Part shown: piece after piece, positions 498-52,000 of the stretch
Position numbering within the stretch: position 1 is the first letter of the stretch
Layout of the letters: the number at the start of each line of letters is the position of its first letter
Assembly: GCA_963281255.1 (NCBI GenBank)
Contig: OY725497.1
Coordinates: 4,580,968-4,644,967, forward strand
Length of the DNA: 64,000 nucleotides
Direction: 5' to 3'
DNA from: Aphrocallistes beatrix
Lineage: Eukaryota; Porifera; Hexactinellida; Sceptrulophora; Aphrocallistidae
The notes under the pieces: model-generated
The model's database searches: none
What the model was told of the DNA's origin: nothing
What the model saw: only the letters and a program-made list of their open reading frames with translations
Program-made: the position numbers and the translations under genes

Positions 498-1125
498 ACT
501 TTATTCCCTGTTGTTAGTTCCCTTAGGTTGTGTGAGTGACACGTATTCTATTTTTATCTTGATTCATGAGTATGTCTATTTATATACATGTTTACTCAAC
601 TTCTTATTTCGTATTTGAGCCAACACTAATCTGACAATCCCGTAATTCCATTGGTCACTGTTGGTTGGTTGGACACTACCCCCGTATCTAATTTTAGTAA
701 CATTATAATGGCATATTTGGTGTCATTTTCAACAATGGCGTCATCAATGCTAAGTACGCATTTCATGGAGTTGGTAATGTTGTTGTTGTTCTGTTTGTTA
801 TTTTATCGGTCGTAGCAGTTCATATCTCTGCTCCATCAATTCATGACAGATTCCATCAAATTGTATGAGTGTTTAGTACAGTGTAACTCTCGACATTCCA
901 CGGATTTATAAAATAGGAAACCTCTTCTGAGGTACGGCACATTTCTGAAATATGGTACGAACCCATTCTCCTGATTAACATTTCTGCTATATATAAATGA
1001 TACATTGTGAACCTTCGAGATATGGCACAGGCATTCCCATAGTGTCGCATTTCAGAGGTTTACTTTTGTGGAACCTCCCCCAGATACAATTTTTTTAAGA
1101 AAATCTGGTATATATTTATCTTAGA
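498..1125. other. intergenic, AT-rich, no gene seen
   Basis: This is the 3' flank of the HEAT-repeat gene. It holds short open frames on the minus strand that have no codon bias or splice sites, and I see nothing conserved. Confidence 0.5.
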
Positions 1126-9645: not shown

Positions 9646-11576
9646 ATGAGTTCTAATTCGGGTCAGAACAAACGTGCGCCCGATTTAGATCCCCAGACTC
9701 GTGGGGCGGGCAAAACGACACCCCAGAGCACAATCCCCAATCTCTCTCCTCCCCCTGCCACCACCACTGGTTCCCATTCTGCCCCCAACTCCCCAACCCA
9801 TCCGGTCTCTCCTTCAAAATCCGAAAAGACCTCCGATAATGCGTCCAAGACGAGTCAGCTAGAAGCTGAAGTCGTGAGGATGAAATCCAAACTCGACGAA
9901 GTTAAGCGGACGATGCGAGATAAAGAACTGAGGGATGTTTCGGGGAGGATTTCTCCAATCGATTTATCGCAAAGTCCACTGCCAAATGCCCGCGTCCGGC
10001 GGACACTGAAACAGCACTCGGGGAAGGTTCTCTGCGTTGATTGGTCCTCCGATGGTGTCCACTTATGCTCATCCAGCACGGATGGAGATGTGATCATATG
10101 GAATGCATTCACGAAAGAGATCGTGAAGATAATCCCATGCAAGATCCCATGGTTAATAACATGTGCATTCTCGCCAGTGGTGACATCTCACGTCATATGT
10201 TATGGTGGACTCGACAACAGGTGTTCCATTATGCGGATTTCAAAGCAACCTCCCAACGAGAATAAAGTGGTTTCCAAAGCATCGTTTGCGTGCCACACTT
10301 CTTTTGTGTCGTGTTCCTCCTTCCTTGGAGAGGACCAACAGCTGTTGACTGGGTCTGGGGATGGAACTTGTATTCTGTGGGATGTCGAAGGACAGAAAGC
10401 GGAACAAACTTTCAGATCGATAGGCACACAGATTTTGTGTTTGGACACGAATCCCATTAATCCGTGGAATGTGTTCTGCACTGGGTCGAGTGACAACATT
10501 GCTCGCATCTTTGATATACGAAGTGGCGCATGTGAAATGATGTTTGAGGGCCATGTGTCCGATATTAACACCTTGAAGTTCCTCCCGAGTGGCGATTCCT
10601 TCATTTCCGGGTCAGACGACAGCACTTGTAGACTGAACGACTTGAGATGTGATCAAGAACTCCAGGTACCTACAACGGACAATTATTTCATGCAACGTCT
10701 TATCCATGGTCCTATTATACTGCCACAGACATGGCGACTTGAGCCATGATAAAAGCGGGACATAATGGGGAAATTTCATGTAAAACCTTTTCACAATTAG
10801 CTCAGTGAAGAGCGAAAATGTCAGTCGAGACTGTTAGTGCAGCTCCATTGAGTGACTTGTAGGGCATTTGCATAATGTACATCCATAATTGCGTTTATAG
10901 TTTCTCCATGTCAACCAATCAGATTTCAAGTTTAGAGAGTCATTGTAATTCATTTATGTTCATTGAGTCAGGTATAATCCCTGGATTCTGATTGGCTAAT
11001 ACATTTTGACACCTTTTGAAAAAAGGTGTGAAAAATTTCCAGAATTTGGACCCAGGTCAAAATCTCCACCATGATATACCACTTTTTCACAATTAGCTCA
11101 GTAGAAGAGTGAAAAGGTAGGACATCCTTCTTTCTCATGTACGTGTCTGAATCTACACAGTTTAGTTCATAAAGTTGCTTAGAACTGAAACATTCCGCAT
11201 CCGTAATGATTATTACGGAAACAAATTCTTGGTAAATCATTACGTAATTGTGAATACCAACAATTTGAGAAACTATTTACGTAACAGACGCTGTTGTTAT
11301 CCACAGTGTATGGTCTTATCCATACTAACTCTGTAGGTGTACAGAAATGACAGCATAATATTCGGTGTCTCTTCCATCGATACCACCCTGAGTGGAAGAG
11401 TATTCTTTGCCGCCCACGACGACTCAACCATCAACGCGTGGGACCTACTTCACGGCAAAAGAGTGGCCAACTATCTCAACTTCCACGACGACAAAGTGAC
11501 ACGATTGAGATTGTGTCCGGATGGGTTTACAGTGGCTACCAGCAGCTGGGATAAATCTATCAAGATCTGGTGTTAG
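9646..11576 (+). CDS. GNB5: G protein beta-5 subunit (WD40 propeller)
   Basis: Two exons, 9646-10665 and 11337-11576 (GT-AG, phase 0), give 419 residues. Gbeta5 pairs with R7-family RGS proteins through their GGL domain and accelerates Galpha-i/o turn-off at membranes. After a Pro/Ser-rich stretch (residues 1-65) and a coiled coil (about 68-95), seven WD40 blades run from RRTLKQHSGKVLCVDW (about 117) to the last blade ending DKSIKIWC. Diagnostic Gbeta5-like blocks are GGLDNRCS, LTGSGDGTCILWDVE, SGDSFISGSDDSTCRL and SIIFGVSSID. The Pro/Ser-rich N-terminus makes it longer than the usual 350-395 residues. The intron carries copies of two dispersed repeats. Confidence 0.95.
10850..11085 (+). repeat. 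dispersed repeat 'CCAATCAGATTTCAAG', copy 1
   Basis: This stretch shares long collinear similarity with 38690-39065 and with the reverse strand of 49840-50175. Landmarks in order are CCAATCAGATTTCAAGTTTAG, a GATTCTGATTGG block, TTTTGACACCTTTT, GTGTGAAAA, AGAATTTGGAC and a CCACCAT block. It lies in the GNB5 intron and is non-coding. Confidence 0.8.
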
Positions 11577-14953: not shown

Positions 14954-17900
14954 ATGGCGTTTTTGCAGAGTTTAGTGACAATTTTGTTTTGTTTCGTTTT
15001 CATTTCTATTCTTAAACAAACAGAGAATGCTTTGGCAGAGGAATATACGTGCAATGCCCGCTGTTCGTCTTATGCCTGTATGACCAATGCCACTCTCTGT
15101 CAGCGGAATAGATTCCTTTCCCAGTGTGGTTGTTGCCATTTGTGCGTCAAAGGTAATAATGAATTGTGTGGAGGAGAATTCGGGAAGTATGGGATATGTG
15201 GGAGAGGGTTGAGATGTACAGTTAGGATTAGACGGTTCCTCCTCTCAGAAAATGGTCCCACAGGATTATGCAAACGTAAGTAACCAATTTATTCCTGTAA
15301 GTAATCACTTTTTGTAAATATTGCTAGAGCAGTTTTGTAAATATTATCGGCTGCAATATTTTCAGGTCAGTCAGTAGTTTTGTTGTAATAAATAAGCGAA
15401 CCCAATTTTAGCTCTTAAACTGTAATTTAATGAATTTAAGACACGTTTAATCCTAAAATAAAATGTTCTTTCAGTGTTTTAGATCTTTTTCAGATAATTT
15501 ACTCTCTCCTGTTGTTTATTATTATATTTAATTATAAACCGACTCAATGGAGTGGCTGATAACATGTAGCATTTTTAACAAACTCAATAATTGTGTCGAC
15601 TCCAGATAACAGTTACTAGCTTATAAAAGCTATATACAGTCGACTCCGCTTAATAGGGCCACTGTTTAATCGGGTCAACCGCTTAATTGGGCCACTTTTG
15701 GCAGGACCGGAATAGCTCTCACACATAGAAGCTAATACAAAATATTTTCGGTTAATAGGGTTCTCCGCTTAATCGGGTCAAAATATCCTCTGACCGATGT
15801 GACCCTATTAAGCGGAGTCGACTGTACTTTAATTTTGTGGGAGTAACAACAATGTTAACTCGTGTTGTTTACTGTAAATAAAGTGAACAATAACAACAGG
15901 GTCTAAGTACGAATATCACATGTGAACGCGTTACTTTCATGATCTCAACTTTGTATTATCTAAAGTTTTCACTGTTGAGAATTTGTGATATATGAAAACG
16001 TACCGGATAAGACATTTCAACAATTAGCTTCATTAACCGTACAATCTGAAAATGCATATTTCCTTTTGAGTAAATTTTTGGGTTCAAATCAATAATAAAT
16101 TTTTACTATGGCAGTGATAGATGGTGGCATTCACCACAAATTCTACCACTTTTCACTGTATTTCCATTTTGGATTCGGCGAGTAGATTCTAATATGCTTG
16201 ACATAATGTAGGCAGCTGAGATGTCATGTTTTGCAAGTTCTTGATTAGAATATCAGTTTTTTCTAATACTACATAGTTTCAATACTAAAGTTGAGTTTGC
16301 AAAGAGTTGTTTACAACGAGGACAATACTGGACATATTCCTGTGAAACTAATACTCTGTTAATATGGTAATTGCACCACATAAGGTGGGATAAGCCTGTT
16401 TCAATATATTATTGAATTGTGAACCTCAGTTATGTTGAAATTTGAAGAGTCACAACTTCCCTGACTTTAATAAATCCCCAATGAGTCTAGGAATGTTGCT
16501 AATTTGGGCGGGCAAACCATTAAACGCGGGGGAAGTTACTATAAATAGAATATACTCTGTATTCCGAATTTGGGTTCAATTAAACTGTTAGTTTTGCTAA
16601 CTGAGTTCGAATTATTGTTCTGCTTCGAGATGTTGTAATGTATTGTATTGTGTTGTATTGTATTGTTGCAGAAATCAGCCAATCAAATATTTAGATGACC
16701 AACTATTCTATTTTTAGCTATCGCCTGCCTCCAGAAATGCAAGCGTCCAGCTCCAGTCTGCGGTAGCAACGGTTTTATCTTCAAGAATTTATGCGAAATG
16801 GGGAAATTTGCATGTTTAGGCGGGACGAAGATAACTTCCAGACCTCTGAGTGAATGCATTAGCAATAGTAAGTCGCGACACATTCTACTTCACAGTGATA
16901 TTATATTACGATCGGAATGTTCAGGAATTGTGAGAAAACCCAGACAAACAAAAAACACTAAAATAGTTTCGCCACTTTTGTTATTTTCGGCTTAGTAATT
17001 AATTTCAACCTATTTTTGGTTCGAAAACTTATTTTTAACTTCGCCCGTATTTACCCTTAAAGACCACGACGAACAATTTGGTCGTAAAACGCTATTCTAA
17101 GCGGAACAACTCATTTGACGCAGCCTCCACATGTCTACATGTCTACGTGTTAATTGGATGTCCCTTATAGACAGTTTCAGTTCAAGTTTCAGCTTAGGTA
17201 GAGCAAAATATTTCCATTAGTATCTGACACCTACATTCCTGTGTTTCAACCAACCAAGTTCAGAATAGTTCCCATTGTCCAATGAGATATCCTCACTTTG
17301 TTACTAATTCACATAAGAATTGTTTTGATCCGTTGAAATTTGCTAGTTACCTCGATTAATGTATTATCAGTGAGTATCGTAGGACGTTGCGAGAGAGTAA
17401 GAGGAGCTTGTGACTTCGTTCTGCAGTCAAGTGTACACTCAAGCTTCCACAGTGTCCGTAGGCAATCCTTCGGGAATTGCCACGGACTAAGCAGCTGTTC
17501 ATCAAGGAGGTATGCGGCGAAATCCAAATGCGCCAACAACCTCCTGACCTACACGAGTAGGTGTCAGAAGAACATTCATGCCTGCATCCTGGGGGAGAGA
17601 TTGAAATGGGGGAGCAGTGGAAAGTGTCAGAAAGGTAAGTCATGATGACGAGAATAAATTACGTTCCTGTTTTGCTATAATCCAAGCCTACAAATCTATT
17701 GGTCAGCTCCTGCATTAACTATATGGCACTCGAGCCATCTAGATTGTGGTTTTCAGTCTATCTTGATCTCACCTGTAATATAGCAGTACTATTAACTTAC
17801 AAAGTATGTACCTTAATTTACATCATACTCTTACCCTTCAGGTTTCAGTAATCATGACTGCATGTGAAAGTCCATACCAGTTTTTATAAGTCTTTCGCAA

Positions 17901-21427: not shown

Positions 21428-21559
21428 CACCTCTCACTTGTTGTTGTTTACTCTGCAAACAAAACAAATATTTAACACTTCTTTTCTTCTGTGTGTGTGC
21501 TTGTATTTACTATTACTCAGTATGTATTTATTATTCAGAAGTACTATTTTAAAATGCCA

Positions 21560-21632
21560 CTTTTACCTGGGGTCTTTTCTATTTATAGTCTGGACCCCAA
21601 ATTTATATGGCTTCCCGCCCAAAATGACTTAA
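21560..21632 (-). repeat. GGGCGGG/CTATAAATAG cassette, copy D
   Basis: Read on the minus strand: AAGTCATTTTGGGCGGGAAG, then GGGGTC, CTATAAATAG and GACCCC, so the decamer lies in a hairpin loop as in copies A-C. It sits just 3' of the PSAP/PPPY gene and points the opposite way. Confidence 0.75.
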
Positions 21633-21780
21633 ACAGGAGATGACGCAACACATTCCTGGTATAGGCGGGGTTAAATACTGTCCATTCCTTAGTTAGGATC
21701 CACACGACACATTTGATCCGCCAGAGCAATGATAGAATATCACAACAGCTGATCTCACGAACTATCGCTTTATCGAAATC

Positions 21781-29199: not shown

Positions 29200-29420
29200 T
29201 ATTGCTAGTTGAAGTTTCTGAGTGGATACATTATCCGTGTTTAAGCATAGGCGCCCAATTGGGACACATTATCCCAACCATCGGTAAACCCATAGAAATT
29301 CCAAGCCACTTAAGACGACACTTATAATACTTCGAAGCCATTCGATATCTTCATCAGTCCACTGTCAAACTTATTTCTCGATTCTAGAAATTCAATTAAA
29401 ACGACCATGGATTTTGCTAA

Positions 29421-29515
29421 CTCATTTCCGGTTGTCATTTTGGGCGGGGAAACCTTAGAAGTGTGGGGTCTATGCTATAAATAGAATTGACCCCAAGTAG
29501 ACGTCAGGTTAAGTT
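29421..29515 (+). promoter_or_regulatory. GGGCGGG/CTATAAATAG cassette, copy A, serving as core promoter
   Basis: TCATTTTGGGCGGGGAAACC, then GGGGTC, GCTATAAATAGA and GACCCC. TATAAATAG at 29476-29484 is 74-82 bases upstream of the ATG at 29558 and is the only good TATA box there. The same module occurs at four other places away from starts, so the promoter appears to come from a dispersed element (inference). Confidence 0.6.
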
Positions 29516-29557: not shown

Positions 29558-32500
29558 ATGGACGATCAGGTGAAGTGGCAGATTGGAATTAAATGGGTTA
29601 CTAAGAATTGTGTCTAGCTGGGAGGCACAGGAGGTACCCACAGAGGAGTTGAGTCAAGAAGAACTGGACAAGCTGGTTGCGGATGAAGTGGAGAGTTTGA
29701 GAGAGAAGAAGAAAGCGCTGGAAGGAATGCTGACGTCACAGGGATTAGGCGCAAGCGACCAGGTGACTAATTCCGTAACAGATGTTCTATTATTAGAATT
29801 CGTCCAGCGCATTGATGTACCATAGCATTGAGGTAGCTAAAAATAGCACTTACGTTTCTATCAAATGAACAATTGAACTCTAGCAATTGATTGGCCAATA
29901 GTATAATCAATGCAATATTCTCAAAATTACCTCTTTTAAAAAAACTTTAAATTTAAAGTGGTTTAATCCATGCCACTAATTTCACACCTCTGCAGACGCT
30001 ACATCCTGACTGGGTGAAAGGAGAGGTGATGATTCCTGACTTTCATTGTGCTCGATGCAGAGACCTTTTCTATGGACTCACAGACGAACCTTGCGAAGAA
30101 GAACTGGAAAGACTTAAAAGGTTACCACAAAAGTTCTGAAATTGTTTGTTGACATTTGTCGCCTCTCAAGTTTTACTTGTTTATGCCAAAGGTTGAGAAT
30201 GAAAATGAATTCTGCATTTATATTTGGTGGAAAGATGTCATAACTATCAACCTTGCAAATCTGAGATTTGATGAAGGAACCTAGAAATGTACCAAATCTC
30301 TTTGAATGCAACATTTGCGAATCAATTAAAACTCAATTTGTTGTATAAGGTTGTTTGTTTGTTTGTTTGTTTGTTTATTTGTTTACACACCTGGACAAGT
30401 GACAGTTTCTAGGTTTTGAAGCGATTTTTCGCCTAAAAAAATGCACTTTTAGATTTGATCAATCAGCGTTGAGTATTTTTAGCGTATAATACACGGATTT
30501 TAGGAGAGTATAAATAAGAGAGATTTCAATGCATACTCATTATTGGAATTTAATTCCTTGAATGGTTAGTGTGCATCCCCACGATTACATAATCGTTATG
30601 TTTGTATTTATCAGAGCATAGGCAGCTCAATTCAGGGTATTATGCAGGGGAGAGCTGCATTTGTCCTAAAAGTGTGTTTTTTCTGAAGAAAGGGGTGTGT
30701 GTAGAGGCATTTTGGTCGGGGAATATATTGTAATGCTAGGATTTTGCTGTTTTTAGGAGTGATGTTTATTTGCAAACTGAAATTCGGACAAATGCGTACT
30801 ACAAATTCGGACAAATGCATACTTCAAAATTCGGACAAATGCATGCGTCCCTTATACAGCCCTCCAGATACACTCCTAATCTCAAACCCATAAATTTTCA
30901 TAGGCCTAAGTCGATAAATAACATAATATAAGGTAAATTGGGTATTATTCTGGATTTCACGCTCCTAAACACTTAAAATCATAGCCTAAAGGAGCGTCTC
31001 GCGCTCCTAGATAATTCCTTGGCAGCGACTATCATTGGATTAGCAGAGGCGCCAGGATGGCGCCTCATGCGTGCATGAGTGTTCTCCAGCCGCGCAGCAA
31101 GCTAGATGCACTTACCCTTTGGAGTAGACATAACGTAGGAGTGCAATGTTCAAGTATGTGAATTTAGCTGATCCTATCGACTTGGTGATAAGCCATGAGT
31201 ATTACTTCACATGCATTTCAACTGCGTAGGGAGTCTCATCAGATTTAAGACATTTTGAAAGAGATAGGGACATTCCGAATACTTTTGAAGCAAGATTACA
31301 TTTGTTTGTGGGGACAAAGTATGCAATAACATGGCACAATTTGATTAGTGCTGATCCTAATATATCAGATGTCCTATTGGCAGAGACATTCTTGAAAATC
31401 TACTGGAACGATTTTTACTAACTTGGAACAGAAATTCCTTAAGTACATTATTTGTACCCCGGGTATCGATTATTCATATTTCACACCTTGCCTCAAAACA
31501 TGACAAATTGTCCTGACCAATGAAATTGCAGGGTTTTCTTTTACATTAAAATGGAATATAATTGGAAATGTGGATTGAACAGGACACAGTGGCGTAGCAC
31601 TGACTCAAAAAGTGGTCCGGCTAAAAACATGTAAACCATGAGTGGACTCGGAATTTTGCTATATCATTTGTCCAATAAAAATAAAACGTAATATTATTCT
31701 GTGGATTCGTCGTAATGGATCCACTTCCACTGCTCAAACCACTTTACATTGAATGCTCTTTGCACAACATTAGTCAACCCAAAATAGCGTTTTGGGAAAA
31801 TAAAAGTTTTTGGATGATGGGGCTCTTTAGGTAAAGGCGATGCCATGAGAGATATAATTCAGCTAGCAAACTTGATAAATAAGGTCAGACAAAAGATATA
31901 CATACATTGGAATGCAAAAGCACAAACTTATAAGTCAGCGAATAGGAAAATTCATGGTCCGGCCAAAAACCGGACCCGCCGGACCGGCTAAAAAAGTGAT
32001 CCGGCCAAAAACCGGACCTGCCACACCTACTCCTACGCCTATGAAGCATGCATCATTATGAAGACTCTAAACTCGAAATCTGATTGGCTGAATTGAAAAT
32101 ATAATACTTAACATTTATAGTTGCATATACGTATTATAATTATAAATTAATCATATTATATATATCACACCGTTGACATTATGTCTAAGCATGGCCTACT
32201 TAATATATATTAAGTAGGCCATGGGCTAAGATAGGGTATTTGTCTATATAGAATTTCACACTTCTCTAAATGAATATTTCTGAATGTTTAGTTACATTTC
32301 GCGTGTCTCTAAGCACTAACTGGAGTTGCAATATTTCGGTATGTCGACCGACATTTTAAAATTTATTCTGTCTCTATTCTAGAGAGGGATTGTGGGGTGG
32401 AGGAGAGAAGAATGAGGAAGAACTCTCTCCGAAGTCTCGCCGCCAGAGAGAGACCGGAACCAGAAGCCCGTTGCTGAAGAGAGGAGAAACCGGACGGACT

Positions 32501-33616
32501 GATTCAAGCCATGAAAAAAAAGGTTCGAGGATTTCTTCAAGCGTTGGATCGAGACACAAAGCCACTGGCAGGGTGGATGGTGGGACAGAAGGGACACATG
32601 GAGAGGGAAGGGGGATCAATAATGGCAGGACAAGGGGTACTAGGTCCAGCGAAGATACGCTAGCGGTAGATAGGAATGTTGACAGCGATATTTCAACCGC
32701 GCGGAAACTAAATTCATCTGGAAAAGGCAATGGAGAAGAGAGTGAGTTAGTACATGGAGATGTGTGTGATGGTGATTGCATGAAGGATACACATATAATG
32801 CAAGATGAAGGGAGGGAAAGGGGTAGTGACAAAATAAGAGATATCAGAACTAACTCGTCTTATGGTTCTAATTCCAATGGAGCAGGGGCGTATCTAGGGA
32901 AGAGTGGTGAGGTAGGTGGGTTTAAGGGTGATAAACTGGGGTCAGGAAAGGGAAAGAAAGATAGGAGAGTGAAATCTGACAGAGGTGTGAATGGTTCTGA
33001 CACTGTGTCGGATTCAGAAAGTAGTGGCGAGGAAACGAGTGGCACGTCTGGTCGGAAGAAAAGATCCCACAGGAGGCGTGAAAAAGTGGAGGAGGGTGAA
33101 ATTGGGGGAGTGTTAGATGGCACGGACGGAGACGGGGTGGGAGTGTCTATAAATAGAAACAGAGCGAGGAATGGAGTGAGTAAAGATGGCGCAAATGTGT
33201 CAGAAAGTGTCGCGCTGGGAGCAGACACAATTTCAGAAGAGCAGTTGCGGGCTGAAGGGAGTGAAGCTAGCAAGAGAGCGGAGGAGGATAGGAACAGAGA
33301 GATGAGTGGTGGGTTCTCTCACAGGGATGTGTCGAGTGAGTGGGAGAGAGTGGCGTCGAGGGATAGGAAAGTGTCTCACAACGTGGCAGAGGGCGTGGAT
33401 GGGGGGGACAGAGACAACCATATAGAGAGGAGGGGTGTCCTTGCTTCAGCTGGTCCCTATAGACAGACAGAGGGGACAGAAAGAGATCTCCGTTCCCCTT
33501 CCCAGATTCTGTCCGGCCTCCTGAACAAACGTCCCTCCACCGCGAATGCAAGTCTACATTCACAGTTCGGTTTTGCGGTGTCGAATCCTTACACTTTCTC
33601 CTATTACAATTCGTAA
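29558..33616 (+). CDS. unrecognised 500-residue protein with long hydrophilic low-complexity tail
   Basis: Four exons, 29558-29569, 29631-29762, 29996-30120 and 32383-33616, are joined by GT-AG introns (the first is only 61 bp). The total of 1503 bases divides by three. Residues 1-48 hold an acidic coiled helix (EELSQEELDKLVADEVESLREKK). Residues 49-90 hold a compact block with HPDWVKGEVMIPDFHCARC and more Cys (DEPCEEE), possibly a small metal-binding motif. Residues 91-499, one exon, are Gly/Ser/Arg/Glu/Asp-rich, predicted disordered, with RRKRSHRRR-like basic clusters. The last about 50 residues (LRSPSQILSGLLNKRP ... NPYTFSYYNS) look ordered. I do not recognise the family. The exact phase fit of all exons is the main support. 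Confidence 0.6.
30121..32382. other. intron 3 of the 29.6 kb gene; repeats
   Basis: A (GTTT)n run at about 30350-30380. A repeat at 30845-31030 is shared with 45395-45750. A perfect 34-bp palindrome lies at 32190-32223. Near 31950-32040 two copies of a GGTCCGGCCAAAAACCGGACC-type sequence occur in tandem. No independent gene is supported. Confidence 0.5.
30845..31030 (+). repeat. dispersed repeat 'CGCTCCTAGATAAT', copy 1
   Basis: It is collinear with 45395-45750: CAGCCCTCCAGATA, CCCATAAATTTT, ATAAATAACAT, GGTAAATTG, TTTCACGCTCCTAAACACTT and GCGCTCCTAGATAATTCC. This copy lacks the MITE found in the other, so it shows the empty site. Confidence 0.75.
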
Positions 33617-34330: not shown

Positions 34331-37300
34331 TTATACGGACGAATTCCGATCTTCCTCCTCCGCATCGAAGAGAGTAGCGCGAGAAGAAGCCAAGTCCCGC
34401 TTTTCATCGACAGGAACTGTCCTCATCCTAGAAATGGTCTGTTTCATCTGTTCGAGAGCAGTTTGCTGCTGAGTCAGCAATATCTTCACTTCTGTCAGTT
34501 TGTCGAAATTATCTATAAATAGAATTCAATGAATTCTAAGCGACAGAGGAACACTTCAATTCATTATTTTAAAACCAAACGAAAGTACCAATATTTCAAA
34601 ATAGAATTTTCGTTTCTGACAACTGGATACAGTTATCTACTTTCAAGCTAACTTCCTTCACACACTGGGATTCATTCCATGTTTCTACTCCCTTAATTCT
34701 CAAATTCACACCTCTCTACCCTATAAATAGCTACCTTCTTGATACTCCTTCCATTGGTTGCTTTTCATCACGATCTCTCCGAGGTAGCCGTATTTGCCCA
34801 GAGTTGTCCCCAGCCCTCTCCCCAGGATCTTGACAACGAACTTGAGTCGATAGTATGAGACGATTCTCTGGGACTTCGCTTTCGCAGCTGAATAGGTGTC
34901 AGTGACCTAGAGGTGTTAAGTGGTTAAGTGGCGTTAGAACCCTTTTTGGAGATAAGAACTAACAGCTAATGAGGATTTGAAGTGGTTTAATTGGTCTCCA
35001 TGGCAACAGGTTAAGTATTTAAAAGTTTCCTGAGATAATATACAACAAATTATTCCATTAGTTGTGATACGTGAATGCCTAGCAACGTACCTGTGCAATA
35101 AATATGTTCAGGAGCACGACGATAACGAGAGTGAGAGTGACTAGATAAATAGTACAGTCCAGCCAGTTTAGACGGTTGAACAAGAAATTCCCATCCAACA
35201 CATTCTCTCCTTGCAATAGCAACCGCATGAACAAAAGGAATGCCCAGTAGAGCTCGTTGTACTGGCCAAGTCCTTCATCGCCTGTGATCTCTAGGATTGT
35301 CATGTTGGACTTTGGTAGGTTGGGACCGAATGGCGCCCTGATGGCGATGAAGAACGCCTCCGCGCCTACTAGGATTATGGTCCCAGAGACCAACACGAAT
35401 TTGGGCACATCTTTGATTATGATTAGCGTGATGGTGTGGACGTAGGTACCGAAGCCTGGCAGGAGACGCAGGACTTTAATGAAACGTAGGAAGTGGATCA
35501 CAACCGCCAAAGCACCGAACACCCACTGGAAGGAAATGTCAGCCAATCTCATTGGTAGGATCAGGAAGAGGAGAAGTAGCCCGATAATATCGAAATAGTT
35601 GTATGGGTCCTTTATATATATCCCAACCACTTCCTTCGCGATCGTCGCTATTGAGTTTTCGACGTCTCGATTTTTCTCGGCGGATTTTACCAATATTTTT
35701 TGATAAACTTGTCTCGATTCGCCGACAACTTCAAATATTTCCAGCAGCACTGAAAGAACCCAGAACACTGCCACCACGATTTCGAAAATGGCCCTGATTA
35801 TGTCCCCAGTGGTCGAGTAGATGAGTGGATGAGTTGTCACAGCCGCCGTAGTCAAGATGTAGAACAGACAAAATAAGAAAACGATGAAATACAGGATTTC
35901 CACCCAGAGGTAGTAGTTCCCTACCCTGCTCATCTTCTTATCCACAACAACACGAACGGTTGGATGGTATGCTAGATCGTGATCTTCTGTTTCACCTAAC
36001 ATCTGTAGTGCCACGCCTCCAATCGAACTGAATTCTTTGTCCAAAGGTGTGTTGCCATGCGAGTCATTCTCAAGATAGAAGGAGCGGACTATCACTAAAA
36101 ACAAACTAGACTAAACACCATCCATGGTCCATGGTGTGTGTAACCATTCCTTTCAGATATTAAAGTAACAGAACGGGGACGTTGCATTAGTTCGAATTTT
36201 GATGTTGTCATTAGTTCGAATGAATTTTCAAGGTACTGTCATTGAGTGGCATTTTGGAAGAAATATTTATGAGAACTGAGGGGAAAGCAGATTTACTTTA
36301 GAGAATAGTAGAAAATTGAGGATGAAAAGGCATTTCTGAACGAAGGGGGTAGCTGAGTGCTATTATAGAGAGCTATTTATAAGAACTGAGGGAAAAGCAG
36401 CATTTTCTGCTGAGAATATGAGAAATTGGAGAAACTTTTAACAATTGTATTAGATGAAATTCGTACCTCAAAAGTATGTTGTTAACTTCGGTGTTAGCAA
36501 CACTACTAAATGACAACATCAAAATTCGAACTAATGCATGCGCTTCAACAGAACCAAACTCACCTTTTCTTGCTTTCAGCGTTGGGATTCTGTTGAGCAG
36601 ACATATGATCGACTTCTTCAGATGGAGCTTATTGTACTTTCTCAGTAAATTATGCAGCTGTTTCAGGGCATTAGATTCTGACTCCTCTTTCAGCATTCCT
36701 GACAACACTTGGTCAAACACCTGTTCGTCTTGGATGGTGGTCTCGTTTACTTCCAGAGCATAGTCCAGTGCGTTCTTGCCCTGTTTGTCCCGAGTGAAGA
36801 TAGAAGCTCCAGACTCAATCAGCACCTAAACGCACTCATTCTTATCCATGGTTCAATTCTATGTTTCACGTACTGAGTTCCAACGTTGATTCTTAAGATA
36901 TCACCATGACAACGCATCCATTGTTGTATTTAATTAAAACTCAGCAATGTACTTTATTTCGCTAAGTCATTTTGGGCGGGAAAACCTTAGAAATGTGGGG
37001 TCCATGCTATAAATAGAATGGACCCCAGGTTAATCTCAATTAGCACCGGAATAGATTCTATTTATAGTAACGCACCGTGCAAAATAACCCAGAAATGTGT
37101 TAGAAACGCTTTGATTATCAACGAAATTCAATTCAACGTACGTTGCATCCTACTGAACCTGACAGTATAATCATACCATATATGGTATGATGTAGAGATG
37201 TGCGCTTAATAAGAGAACAGAGTTAGACTCACTTTGATTGTGTTGGAGAATCCGTTTCTGGTTGCCGCGATCAAAGGTGTTTCTCCTGTGATGTCAGTCT

Positions 37301-39946
37301 CCTCGATGTTCTCTCCTGCGGACACGAGCACTGGCACGATGGTACTCCACCCCTCCTCTGCCGCCGTGAACAGTGCAGTCCTCCCTACACGACATACCAG
37401 CTGAGTTCCATAGCAACCACTTCGGGCTTATGGAATGTTTATAGCAACATATGGAATCTTAATATTGATCTTTTGAGCTGAGCAGTCAGAATTTTGAAAG
37501 TTAGAATTTTATCGATTGCCACAGATTGGAATCGTTTTTTAGTTGCTATACACAAGCAACAAAGCTGCATTCAAATGCAAGGAAATAGAACTGTTCTATT
37601 TCCTTGCAGCATATTGCATTGTGTATGGTGACATTAGAATCTATGTGTTGCCTAAAAACCGGACCAATTTTCAAATTATTCTGGACTAAAAGTCCGGAAT
37701 CGAACTATTCCCTACTAAACCCATTCAAGCCACCCACTAGTTGTGTCTTCTCTAAATTGCGACAACTTCAAATTCTAACCAATGCAGCGTCCCTAAATCT
37801 ATTCACTGAATAGCCAATCAGATTCCCGGGATCTTTCTCACCTCTTTTGTCCTTCCAATGCAAAGCGTTTCCTCCCTTCACCAAACTATGCACGATCTCC
37901 AGTGGCACCCCATTGGCCACCGCCACGTGGAGGCAGGTCAAGCCATCTGCGTTCTGAATCTCCGGGCGGGCGCCATACTTCAGCAGCAGTGTCACGGCAC
38001 CAGGATGGCCTAGAGGGTTCAACTATAAATAGAATGGTTGTACTATAAATAGAAGGTTGTACTATAAATAGAATGGCTGTTCTATAAATAGCCAATTCTT
38101 ATCATCACCATTGGCAGCGGCTAGATGGAGCGGCGTGTTGTGCACTACTATCACGCCCTCGTAGTCGTTGTAGATCTTGGTCTGGATGTTGACGTCGAGG
38201 TCTGGGTATTCCAGGAGTAGGTTCAGCTGATCGTTCCTTCCCTCCTCGGCGGCCTGATGGATCGGGGTGCTCCAGCTCGAGAGGATACTACTCATGTCTC
38301 GGACGTCGAAAGCGGACATTTTTATTGAGCGGGCATTGCTCATAACACTGGAGACACTCTCCAGACTTTCGTGGTGTGGCGGTTTCTGTCCAAGGCGATA
38401 CGGCGTGTAAGGTTGCTCTGACATCTAAAAACAGCCTTCATTAAACTCCTGTCTTGAATCAGTGGAGATTAGCTGTACTTGAAAATGTTTCTAATCAGAA
38501 CCAATGTGTATCCCACATCATTGAGTTAGCTATTGCAATAGTATTAAACCTATCCTCGTTGTAAGATTTATAAATGTGACAGAAAGCCAGATAATTGATT
38601 GGCTGCCAAGAGTCAATCAAACGCTGATTGGCCAAGTATGAAAGTGCCATTTTGAAAATGTTCAAAAATCGCTTTGAAACCTAAAAATTGTCACTCAATT
38701 TTCACCATACCAACCAATCAGATTTCAAGTTTAGGGAATCATTGTGTGATCCCTATTAGTCAATAAAATCAAAGCCAAGTGTAATGTTATATCCATGGAT
38801 TCTGATTGGTTTTAACCCTTAAATGGCGCTAGATTTTTGTTAACTCATTTCCGGTTAAGTCATTTTGGGCGGGGAAACCTTAGAAGTGTGGGTGGGGTCT
38901 TTGCTATAAATAGAAATGGCCCCAGGTAATTTAAGGGTTATTAATACGTTTTGACACCTTTTGTGAAAATGTGTGAAAATTTATCAGAATTTGGACTTCC
39001 GGTTCAAATATCCACCATATACGGAATATTTGGCCCAAATTTGGTCCAATATAATTTCCAGGAGCGAGCAGACATACCCGATCATGACATAAGACATCTC
39101 CATACTAGGAGCTGCACTAAAACCAACATGGCTAACAAAGCAGATTCTCTTTGTATAGAATTAACATTGTTCTTGCACGTGGGGCAGTGTATAGTAAAGT
39201 GACTTTAAAATTGCACAATGCACAAAAGTTTACGTTCAAATTATCACATACAGGCTCTAATGCATCATTGTGTTCCTCTGAATAGGATCTGATTTCCTAT
39301 ACGAGCACATTCCTAATGGTTTCCATGTATTCAGTTATTAAGAGATGTAATTAAGGTTTGAATGCCCTCATTTACATTCCAATGGAACTTTCTTGTAGCT
39401 ATTGTACAGATTTAAAATGTATTCCCAAAGCTTTCTCTGCAAAATCAAAATCACCTCAATTAAGTCATAATTGTGGGCATTGATAACCACTTGTTTACGG
39501 AGTGGCATCGAATCTAGAAATTGATTGGTCAGCACTTCTGATGCTATTCATATCACCGAATTTATTATTTTATAATTGCAATGTTATTGAACCATGAAAC
39601 ACTCAGATGTCACTAATGGTTGGGAATGTTGAGTGCTTGTTCTATTTTAATCAGAGAATTTCAACCCTAATTTCTCTAGATCTATCATTGTCTATTTATA
39701 TCCAATCGAGAGTTCGCTAATTCTGTCCAAATAAGATAGATTTTTAAAACTCACTCTTTTCAAGTGTTTCCTTTTCTTCTCTTCCTCCTTCTCATGATCG
39801 AGGTGCAGCTTTATCTTGGGATGATGGTGGGGGTGGGGAGGAAACGGACTCGCTGGTCCGCTGTAAGGAACATTTTCTGATCCGGGATTAATGAAGAGAC
39901 CCTCTTTGTCTTTAAAAAATTCCTTTTCTCTTTCATGTCGAGCCAT
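34331..39946 (-). CDS. TRP channel with N-terminal ankyrin repeats (TRPV/TRPA-like)
   Basis: Exons on the minus strand are 39755-39946, 38109-38424, 37842-38009, 37233-37384, 36564-36825, 35091-36094, 34734-34906 and a last exon near 34331-34512. The product is about 815 residues. The Asp/His/Lys-rich N-terminus is followed by four to five ankyrin repeats (HNTPLHLAAANG, DGLTCLHVAVANG, GRTALFTAAEEG, GETPLIAATRNG, GKNALDYALE). A linker leads to six membrane segments in the 1-kb exon. S6 runs into LLNIFIAQVTDTYS, the TRP signature. The C-terminal exon is a coiled coil (KLTEVKILLTQQQTALEQMK). The first seven exons join perfectly. The last junction is off by one base (exon 7 ends phase 2; the coding frame of exon 8 needs phase 1), so the end is unresolved. 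The first exon join assumes phase-0 splicing onto the ATG at 38424, which could itself be an alternative start. Size fits TRPV-type better than TRPA1. Confidence 0.85.
36955..37035 (+). repeat. GGGCGGG/CTATAAATAG cassette, copy C
   Basis: AAGTCATTTTGGGCGGGAAA, then GGGGTCCAT, GCTATAAATAGA and ATGGACCCC: a perfect 9-bp hairpin stem around the decamer. It lies in an intron of the TRP gene, opposite to the gene's strand. Confidence 0.85.
38023..38091. repeat. four tandem CTATAAATAG decamers
   Basis: CTATAAATAG occurs at 38023, 38043, 38062 and 38082 (spacing 19-20). Together they make up most of a 99-bp intron (38010-38108) of the TRP gene. Read on the gene strand each is CTATTTATAG, a perfect MEF2-type site and also an acceptor-like sequence. 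Confidence 0.9.
38690..39065 (+). repeat. dispersed repeat 'CCAATCAGATTTCAAG', copy 2 (interrupted by the cassette)
   Basis: Same order of landmarks as 10850-11085 but split by 38816-38937. It lies in the first intron of the TRP gene. Confidence 0.8.
38816..38937 (+). mobile_element. GGGCGGG/CTATAAATAG cassette, copy B, complete with inverted ends
   Basis: A 122-bp unit begins CCCTTAAATGGCGC and ends ATTTAAGGG. TTAA precedes it, and TTATTAA follows. It interrupts the CCAATCAGATTTCAAG repeat at a point where the other two copies of that repeat are continuous. TTAA target and CCCT ends suggest a piggyBac-type MITE (inference). The interior has TTTTGGGCGGGGAAACC and GGGGTC ... GCTATAAATAGA ... 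GGCCCC. Confidence 0.8.
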
Positions 39947-49071: not shown

Positions 49072-52000
49072 ATGGACAAGTTCCAAACCAATCAACCTTC
49101 GCACGATTCCGGTATTGTCACGAGGATAGGCAGTCCTGGTTTTGAGGACGATGACTCGAGCACAGAGAGTGGCTCAATGATGTATAGATGGGAGCAAGCT
49201 CAGCAAGGCGCCTGCGAAACCACCTACCCGACACATAGAGGTAAACTTTACACAACAAACCACTTCTCATGTTTTTGCGCCACCACATTCCTGACTTCGA
49301 TATCCAAATAGTGATTTGTCCGAATCCCATTAAGTGAACCCAAAACTGTCTCAAATAATCAAAATGCAATGAATTTGTTCAGAATTATATCACAGTCTGA
49401 AGTGCGCTGTGTAAGGATTCGCTGGCTGATTCAACTGAGCGCCATTGTAAAGCTGGGCTGTAATCATCCCTAGCTCTGCTAGAAATTCCCACCAGCACCC
49501 ATCATCCTATTGGTTGTTTATATCCATTTATGTTAGCTGAACTAATCGGAATTCTTTCCATAGTTACTGAAATCGAGGCAAATATGTCGAGTGGGCAAGC
49601 AGATCGATTGAAAGCTACTTTGTTTCCTGAAAGTAATGGCGCCCAAGCGACACAAATCGACACGAAACCCACGAATGTTCAGCGACTCAGTGCGCCATCT
49701 CAGGACATAAAACAGTCACTCTGCAACCTTCTGAAGCACCAGGTTAGTTCATATTTGTTTATATTTACTGTTTATTCATATGTTGTGATAATCACTTGAA
49801 TCAGCAATATAATTAAACTGTACATTAGCGCGTGTTTGTTCCTGGAAATTCTATTGGACCAAATCGCACCAAATTTGGACCATATATTCCTTATATGGTG
49901 GAGATTTGAACTTGGATCCAAATTCTGAAAATTTTCACACATTTTCACAAAAGGTGTCAAAATGTATGGCCAATCAGAATCCAGGGATTTAACATTACAG
50001 TTGGCTTTCATTTATTGATAATAGGGATTATACCTAACTCAATGCGTATAAATGAATTACAATGTCTCTCTAAACTTGAAATCTGATTGGTTGAAATGGA
50101 GAATTGTTTAAAACGCAATTAAGGATGTATATTATGCAAATGCCCTACGAGCCAATCACTTACTGGAGTTGCACTAACAATCTGTCGACTGACATCTTTT
50201 AATTAAGACTGAACAACTTTCTAACTAAAGGAATGTACTAGAATACATTTTAACCAATAAGTTTTCAACATAAAACTAATTTCAATTCCACACTGCATTA
50301 ACACTGAAATTATTAGTAACTGTACAATCATGTGAAATACTATTCTACGATCCTTTCTAATTAAATTATGAAACTTGGAACCATAGTTAGTTCAAGGAAC
50401 TGTAACTGCGGGCTGAAGTATAGTATTAGTAAGTGGATTCTGATTCTATTTGTTGACAACACAAATTATATGAAACCTCAAGTGATGAAATCTAAGCACC
50501 ATCCATTTCTATGGCAAGTATTTATCTGGCCTTAAATCCCCTAAACCATAATCAGTATCCGTTTTCAAGTATTCGGATAACGATTTAGTTGTGCCAGTAC
50601 TTTTTTTGCCTCTTTCGCGGAATATAACCTCAAATAAACCGGTTTATGTCATACTAAGAGTGCCACATGTGTGTTTTCTGATTGACAATGGCAGGGGTGA
50701 ACTCTCCCATAGTTATCCCGAACTTTTCAAGCCATTAACTGGTGCGTTTGAGGTTTCAGTGAGTTACAAGTGTTCCAAATTTGCTCCATTCTTCTGCGTA
50801 ACATTATCAGTTTTTTAAAGCTGCAATTAGGCAATGTGTCACCCGTGTTAATGATGATGTGTCTGTTTTCCACTTTCCTAAACCAATTTCCTCAAAAGCT
50901 TTTCATTTTCATCGCCTATGCAACAAAAAGCCTACTAATCAACAAACACACATTCCTATCTACACATATCGTATCGAATACATCTCTAGGAATGATGATC
51001 ACTTGGTGAATACTTGCGAATTGCTCTACTGTGAGAATATCTATTCAACCTCTAATGAGCAATCACGTCTTTTATATTCAATAGTTTAATCAATTATTCT
51101 GGTTTGCAACATCACCGTTTATGAGTTTCAAATTGAGCCATCTGGCTTAGCTAAAGGAAATGAACTGATTGGTTTATTCATTACTTTTTTGCTCCCTTTA
51201 GTCGGACACAGAAGTCACGAGTCGAGTTATTCCTGAGCTGCTACGAGTACTGCAACACTCAGATAGAGATATCATTGAAAAAGCGGCATCGGTAATTTCC
51301 ATAATGCTTCTAGAACAATAATATCGACAATTTGATTGGTTAATTTAGCTCATTTACATTCTTTTGGCAAAAGAGATAATCAAAATCTATAATTTTTGAT
51401 TACAATAGCCTTTGATTTTAAGGATGTATGCTATATAAAAAGTTTTTGAATGACTACTCTAATGATCAGTTTTTTGAATATGTTAGTGCACTCATTTTCA
51501 ACGTGTTCTACGTGCTTAGTGGGTAATCATGCTGGTTGTAGGTTGTGGACAGCTTAGCTAAGAAGGATGCGTCGAGGCAAGCAATACTCTCGTGTCCTAA
51601 GCTCATTGTTTCCTTGATTAACGCCGTCGGAACCAATGTCAATGATGAAACAGCCAAGCTAGCTGCTAACACCCTATCAACGCTCTCCTCAAAGCCTCAA
51701 GGCCGTAGATTGATCCACTCGTGCGACGGAATCGGGTTCTTGGTATGTTAATATTTATATATATCTCAATGCAGTAGCAATTTAAACCTGACACATGATT
51801 GGACAGAATTTCTTGACACCTTCCTGTGATAGATAGGTGTGTAAATATTGCAGAATATAAACGCTTAATTTATTGGTGTGAGCTAACAATTGCATAAGGA
51901 TACACAACATTCCTTCAATACACCTGCCCACATTCCATGATATCACTCTAATAAGTAAGAAGTATTCCAATAATCCTGTGATATTTGCATATTAATTGTC

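Follow-up and report, generated by a model that had tools for sequence, protein, structure and literature searches.

At positions 38816..38937 of the window, that is, of the whole stretch of 64,000 nucleotides of Aphrocallistes beatrix DNA analyzed here, a unit of 122 bp on the plus strand interrupts a repeat, which raises the question of what kind of element it is and which of its parts the machinery that moves it might recognize. The 122-bp unit, its ends (CCCTTAAAT/ATTTAAGGG), a conserved core block, TTTTGGGCGGGGAAACC, and the decamer CTATAAATAG were all found where an initial annotation had placed them. The core block lies at 38863..38879 on the plus strand (it reads TTTTCAATGGGGAAGCC in family D1, described below) and, with up to three mismatches allowed, occurs four times in the window, against 0.12 expected. 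The decamer (38904..38913, plus strand), whose end lies 24 bp from the right tip, is flanked by GGGGTC and GGCCCC in an imperfect palindrome of 30 bp (38894..38923, plus strand). Blocks of the element are called by motif names, namely GC box, E2F, ETS (TTCCGG, ETS-like) and YY1.

The unit is a real mobile insertion. As the annotation had held, it splits a repeat whose two other copies in the window are uninterrupted; these paralogues, at 10901..11076 on the plus strand and 49840..50103 on the minus strand, carry the empty sites GGCTAATAC and GGCCATAC, respectively. A search with the two flanks joined as a single query, which favors continuous copies, returned 40 scored matches from 282 candidates, and 20 of these 40 were fetched; all 20 are continuous at the site, the query itself selecting for continuity. 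Empty sites in the two window copies and the 20 fetched paralogues thus bear out the claim that the unit moved. The letters at the empty site are CTAA in ten of the 20 paralogues, TTAA in three (all three reading GG-TTAA-TA), and other variants in seven; paralogue L197 reads through with CTGA at the site. The occupied site reads GATTGG-TTTTAA-[122 bp]-TTA-TTAA-TACG, with target copies TTAA at 38812..38815 and 38941..38944 and a TTA filler at 38938..38940 that separates the right tip from its TTAA. On these letters, insertion was most probably into TTAA, and a few A/T bases were gained.

The annotation's further proposal that the unit is dispersed holds across the genome searched, 100.5 Mb in 28 contigs. 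A DNA search with the window unit gave 40 scored matches of 971 candidates at 93-100% identity, the window copy included; the other 39 match it at 93-95% over 115-118 bp. Exact matches on both strands numbered 195 for a pattern combining the GC box with the decamer, 201 for TTGCTAACTCATTTCCGG, 292 for AATGTGTYGCGTCATTTCCGG, and 171 for the family D1 left end, CCCACGCTTGCCACAGG, and the reversed control returned zero for each of these four; TTAACCCTTAAATGGCGC, in which TTAA stands directly on the family A tip, has just five. Letters were read for eight loci from the DNA search, the five TTAACCCTTAAATGGCGC loci, 90 of the 195 GC box plus decamer matches (30 loci and 60 stretches), 40 of the 292, 20 of the 201, and 14 further D1 ends. 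Clustering of 139 copies yielded families A (55 copies), D1 (24), B (18), D3 (9), C1 (4), E (4), C2 (4), and C3 (3), plus one cluster of two and 16 singletons; D2 is a subtype separated by eye, with seven best matches. CCC...GGG tips and TTAA sites are common to all nine types (A, B, C1-3, D1-3, E) as well as to the singletons, and so is a core that ends in CTATAAATAG; the eight types that were aligned are 116-118 bp long. Short, of homogeneous length, present in the hundreds by the three core patterns, ending in CCC...GGG repeats (CCCTTAAAT/ATTTAAGGG in A), and flanked on both sides by TTAA in many copies, they have the features of MITEs, and the window unit is a copy of family A, the 118-bp family type with four extra bases in GTGTGGGTGGGG, among very short elements unable to move alone. 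A different word, TCTATAAATAGAAT, occurs 156 times genome-wide (reversed control, 5), and 67 of the 97 listed places used lie less than 0.7 Mb from a contig end, where 22% would be expected; in contrast, listed D-family words on five contigs lie near ends in 14 of 88 places, with 18% expected.

Four related units reported elsewhere in the window do exist, but each had been given coordinates that span just part of a copy; the boundaries given here were read by eye outwards to TTAA. The copy at 29400..29508 (plus strand), a singleton in the clustering, lies between TTAA at 29396-29399 and 29509-29512, with 24 bp from decamer end to tip. Another singleton, the B-like copy at 36940..37029 (plus strand), has TTAATTAAAA before its left tip and a right end lost or rearranged. 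The copy at 21556..21670 (minus strand) belongs to family E, its left tip CCCC adjoining TTAA at 21671-21674. The copy at 16476..16574 (plus strand) is diverged and internally shortened; it reads TTAA (16467-16470), a TAAAT filler, then CCCC...GGG, with 26 bp from decamer end to tip.

What defines the ends of these elements is a CCC tip together with TTAA, the two often separated by a short run of A/T, and not a long inverted repeat. TTAA stands directly at the tip in 51 of 122 left ends and 30 of 121 right ends, against backgrounds of 1.5 and 1.35 per position. Another 42 left ends and 58 right ends have it 1-12 bases off the tip, where chance would give about 16-18 each, and the remaining 29 left ends and 33 right ends (62 of 243) lack it within 12 bases. 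The bases between tip and TTAA are 94% A/T (299 of 319), compared to 67% further out, with T, TT, TTA, and ATAATTA recurring as fillers. Carry-over from the source site and slippage during gap filling are both possible origins for the filler. Target duplication of the piggyBac type, TTAA, is found, with filler at many ends, but neither filler nor missing TTAA is predicted by precise piggyBac cutting, and both count against movement by a piggyBac-type transposase. Exact TIRs are mostly 3-9 bp in the family types, shorter than usual for piggyBac (type F, the single copy L018, has a longer one). A piggyBac-type TIR is 12-19 bp with a CC[C/T]T tip according to the available text of PMC2872659, and by that description no such TIR occurs in the eight aligned types, all of which begin with CCC on the left followed by T, A, G, or C.

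The view that the unit is piggyBac-like stands as regards the TTAA target and the CCC tip; the autonomous relative with the same ends for which the annotation proposed to look is not among the 30 transposase loci inspected. The genome has at least 108 matches to the piggyBac domain, several with open frames, some longer than 530 aa, and scanning of 30 of the 108, with 1.5-kb flanks, for CCC tips, inverted pairs, and the core found no autonomous element with these MITE ends. Locus L051 has a matching pair of CACATTTT at TTAA, and L055 and L067 have left ends that resemble it, but these ends are unlike those of the MITEs, and the element was set aside as a partner. L067 has in addition a 15-letter inverted pair, CAGCCTTCTATCTCC, and a stretch beginning TTAACCCTACTTGGGACCC lies inside L051 and L055. 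By a count made by eye, 58 of the 108 domain matches fall at 1.7-6.6 Mb of a single contig, C2, that makes up about 8% of the genome.

Between families, the inside of the element is kept far better than its tips. Mean identity among the eight aligned types is 0.54, 0.61, 0.53, and 0.71 in successive blocks of the first 40 positions, 0.93 in TAAGTCATTTTG, and 0.86 in GGCGGGGAAACCTT. The palindrome gives 0.78, 0.74, and 0.80, and the last two blocks 0.62 and, outermost, 0.48; because the alignment slips by one base near CATTTCCGG in the D and E types, identity comes out too low at that point. Among 136 copies, of which 32 without a recognizable tip were left out, the distance from the end of CTATAAATAG to the right tip is 24 bp in 92 of 104, 23 in 11, and 22 in one. 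Tips that are nearly all different from family to family, around a core held at a constant distance from the end, suggest that the core is what the moving machinery recognizes.

Each of the three core-pattern searches fixes part of the core and so risks ascertainment bias; the search by the D1 left end alone serves as a check, for D1 only. That end is listed 55 times on contigs C1-C7, 41 times adjoining the core word AATGTGTYGCGTCATTTCCGG and 14 times not, and 29 of the 55 were read: all 14 without the adjoining word and 15 of the 41 with it (two of the 29, L222 and L223, have identical letters over the stretch shown). The GGGGAA block GGGGAAGCC, with up to two changes, is kept in 28 of the 29, L221 having a deletion; the decamer is present with up to two changes in all 29, exactly in 21; and a right tip lies no more than 135 bp away in 25. 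Because a search by the end alone recovers both block and decamer, the core is not just a product of ascertainment, at least for D1, and from their letters none of the 29 appears to be the end of a longer element.

Within families, with diverged parts left unaligned, the picture differs. Identity by segment outside the search word ranges from 0.935 to 0.986 across 22 copies of D1, a numerous family with two copies identical to its type, and the decamer scores 0.986. This roughly even divergence along D1 points to constraint on source elements rather than on the copies resident in the host. In families A (13 copies) and B (7), the GC block has the lowest identity (0.89 and 0.85) and the decamer reaches 0.944 and 1.000 of aligned letters, respectively; these within-family values for D1, A, and B give no clear sign of host-level constraint on the whole core. 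In D3, the 3' arm is lowest, at 0.85. The uneven divergence in A, B, and D3 counts against the explanation preferred here.

That explanation, to which we give somewhat better than even credence, is that the unit is a non-autonomous cut-and-paste MITE with TTAA insertion and CCC tips, probably moved by a piggyBac-type transposase, and that its right-end palindrome serves as a subterminal dyad site. This palindrome would be bound by a dimeric DNA-binding domain, by analogy with the dimer that binds a piggyBac end; the TTCCGG/CATTTT/GGGGAA block further in would serve the left end; CCC and TTAA would be the other needs of the transposase dimer; and the tips outside CCC would be largely free to change. 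Recombination within the shared core could then let families swap ends. One copy, L217, is a mosaic of a D1 left half and an L055-type right end. A second MITE type, seen at about 533-642 of L055 and about 2915-3036 of L031 (both minus strand), has the same terminal palindrome module on an unrelated body made of repeats beginning CACTTTCA; in these otherwise unrelated copies, GTATAAATAG, one letter off the decamer, stands at 24 bp but faces the other way with respect to the tip, which a dyad site would lead one to expect. A single mosaic and two copies of this second MITE type make a small sample.

A simpler account, in which the families are deletion derivatives of one autonomous family whose ends have merely drifted apart, agrees with the common length of 116-118 bp and with the colinear core. 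We consider it unlikely, since it leaves unexplained why the tips are far less alike than the core, how the mosaic L217 arose, and why the terminal module occurs on an unrelated MITE.

We judge it equally improbable that the core is a portable promoter or enhancer, a set of sites for host transcription factors (GC box, ETS-like TTCCGG, and Mef2/TATA decamer) from which transcription would leave through the right end, a function that would account for its conservation. The decamer speaks for this idea. Given the Mef2 consensus as CTAWWWWTAG in the available portion of PMC3250504, CTATAAATAG conforms to it by sequence match, and the loop fits that consensus as well as it fits a TATA box. Genome-wide, CTATAAATAG occurs 3,701 times, compared to 564 for the reversed word, and the window has 17, where 50 simulations averaged 0.18 and never exceeded 2. 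Five of the 17 are in MITE copies and 12 outside, two of the 12 (5613 and 33147) inside long open frames. Four stand about 20 bp apart at 38023-38091; further examples are at 33147, 34266, 34513, 55499, and 63122. The whole CTAWWWWTAG class is enriched as well, with 39 occurrences in the 64 kb, against 0-6 for 13 classes of equal base make-up, and 11,838 genome-wide, against 4,740 reversed. On contig C1, at least 21 of the first 100 CTATAAATAG have a strictly matched MITE no more than 130 bp away, a warning that transposons supply part of this genome's Mef2-like decamers. MADS-box exons are present in the genome, by a search that cannot separate Mef2 from SRF. Among the papers listed on Mef2 and sponge promoters, none bore on the question by its title.

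A promoter role for the TATA-like and E2F-like motifs named in the annotation found no backing from downstream reading frames. ORFs of at least 60 aa starting 30-350 bp downstream were sought at 33 of 37 loci, the other four being without a scorable core; in what is a weak test, they follow 4 of 33 copies and 6 of 33 mirrored controls. No excess appears at any cut-off tried, the successive counts for copies and mirrored controls (of 33) being 12 and 14, 7 and 9, 4 and 6, 2 and 3, and 0 and 1. Neither is the D1 core clearly better kept than the rest of the element, and a promoter has no need of a near-constant distance to a transposon tip. In the window, a short frame at 29558-29770 that looks spliced, as read by eye, opens with an ATG about 50 bp after the copy at 29400-29508. 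This plausible frame speaks for the promoter idea, and that copy is possibly a co-opted promoter, as a single case.

CORE-SINEs, which are copied through RNA, have differing heads and tails around one conserved central core; the MITEs described here resemble them in having variable ends around a kept core, but are TTAA-inserting DNA elements. Among the papers listed on related MITEs, as judged by titles and the opening of abstracts, coral CMITEs looked the closest precedent. According to the available text of Wang et al. 2010 (PMC2872659), the CMITEs of Acropora are likewise MITEs of about 100 bp with TTAA duplication and CCC tips, in several families with different TIRs and one internal region kept better than the TIRs; families IV-VI have shorter TIRs, CMITEs occur in tandem arrays, and the authors left the conserved inside unexplained. 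The sponge families share the trait of an inside better kept between families than the TIRs, with the end-ascertained check covering D1 only. The 24-bp decamer spacing, the end swapping, and the A/T filler seen here do not figure in that available text. The core sequences differ, the best local match being 13 of 14 letters between TCAATGGGGAAGCC of D1 and TCAATGGGGAACCC, a level that 26 of 1000 shuffles attain when six family types are taken together. For D1, this weak 14-nt match was equaled in one of 500 shuffles, but in A and B the CMITE core is matched no better than in shuffles (129 and 136 of 500), and the D1 match may be due to chance. The four core words looked for are printed in none of the literature searched.

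Terminal repeats are usually held to define MITEs; here, as in coral CMITEs, it is an inner cassette that persists while the tips change. The almost constant spacing of 24 bp, the unrelated MITE with the same module, and the mosaic give the CMITE puzzle a testable form, in which a subterminal dyad site may be what is read. A bolder reading, to which we assign only a slim chance, makes the core a docking cassette for host proteins, in which a MADS-box (Mef2-like) dimer seated on the decamer, 24 bp away from the cut, and host factors on the inner blocks together act as an obligatory architectural cofactor; the 13-of-14 coral match would then be what is left, in a different phylum, of one ancient cassette. 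If this were true, any short DNA with a CCC tip, TTAA, and the cassette could be mobilized, and elements could freely trade ends.

The palindrome lies at bp 15-44 from the right tip and in the clearest families reads GGGGTM, CTATAAATAG, KACCCC. The annotation had described its arms as covarying, and among 93 copies of families A-C they do so at three pairs and fail to at the other seven: U8-D3 is complementary in 84 of 93 copies where column make-up predicts 50.0, U7-D4 in 25 (9.9 predicted), and U6-D5 in 77 (66.6 predicted). Among 44 D copies, U6-D5 alone exceeds chance (25 versus 16.2 expected). Only copies whose decamer has no more than one change were admitted, and these counts rest on few family-level events. 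When DNA folding was compared with shuffles, B gave z -4.79, D2 z -3.85, the window copy z -1.66, and D1 z = +0.56, a D1 stem no better than shuffles (140 of 200). Selection on the hairpin itself, as DNA cruciform or RNA, is therefore very doubtful, for all the two-sided changes between families at those three pairs and the good folds of B and D2, since D1, numerous and with two type-identical copies, barely folds, the window copy does so only slightly, and where an outer G-C pair is broken, the change is almost always on one side; the annotation's suggestion that the fold is selected is not supported. Covariation at three pairs between families, together with a D1 that hardly folds, fits a dyad protein-binding site better than a hairpin or a promoter. 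The arms would covary because two equal half-sites are bound, and not for any need of a hairpin, although the poor dyad arms of D1 count against the dyad site too.

A counterpart is known from piggyBac itself. In the available text of Chen et al. 2020 (PMC7351741), a palindromic 19-bp internal repeat at bp 17-33 of the piggyBac end is bound by a dimer of the CRD (cysteine-rich domain). In both cases a transposon that inserts at TTAA has a palindrome shortly inward of its end, at bp 17-33 there and 15-44 here; the two differ in sequence, in length, and in the decamer at the center, and the transposase for these MITEs is putative. In L051 and L055, at about 890-970 (minus strand), the CACATTTT-ended piggyBac-like element carries TTAACCCTACTTGGGACCCACGGGYGGGTC...TATAAATAG, a palindrome of GGGTC half-sites in everted order.
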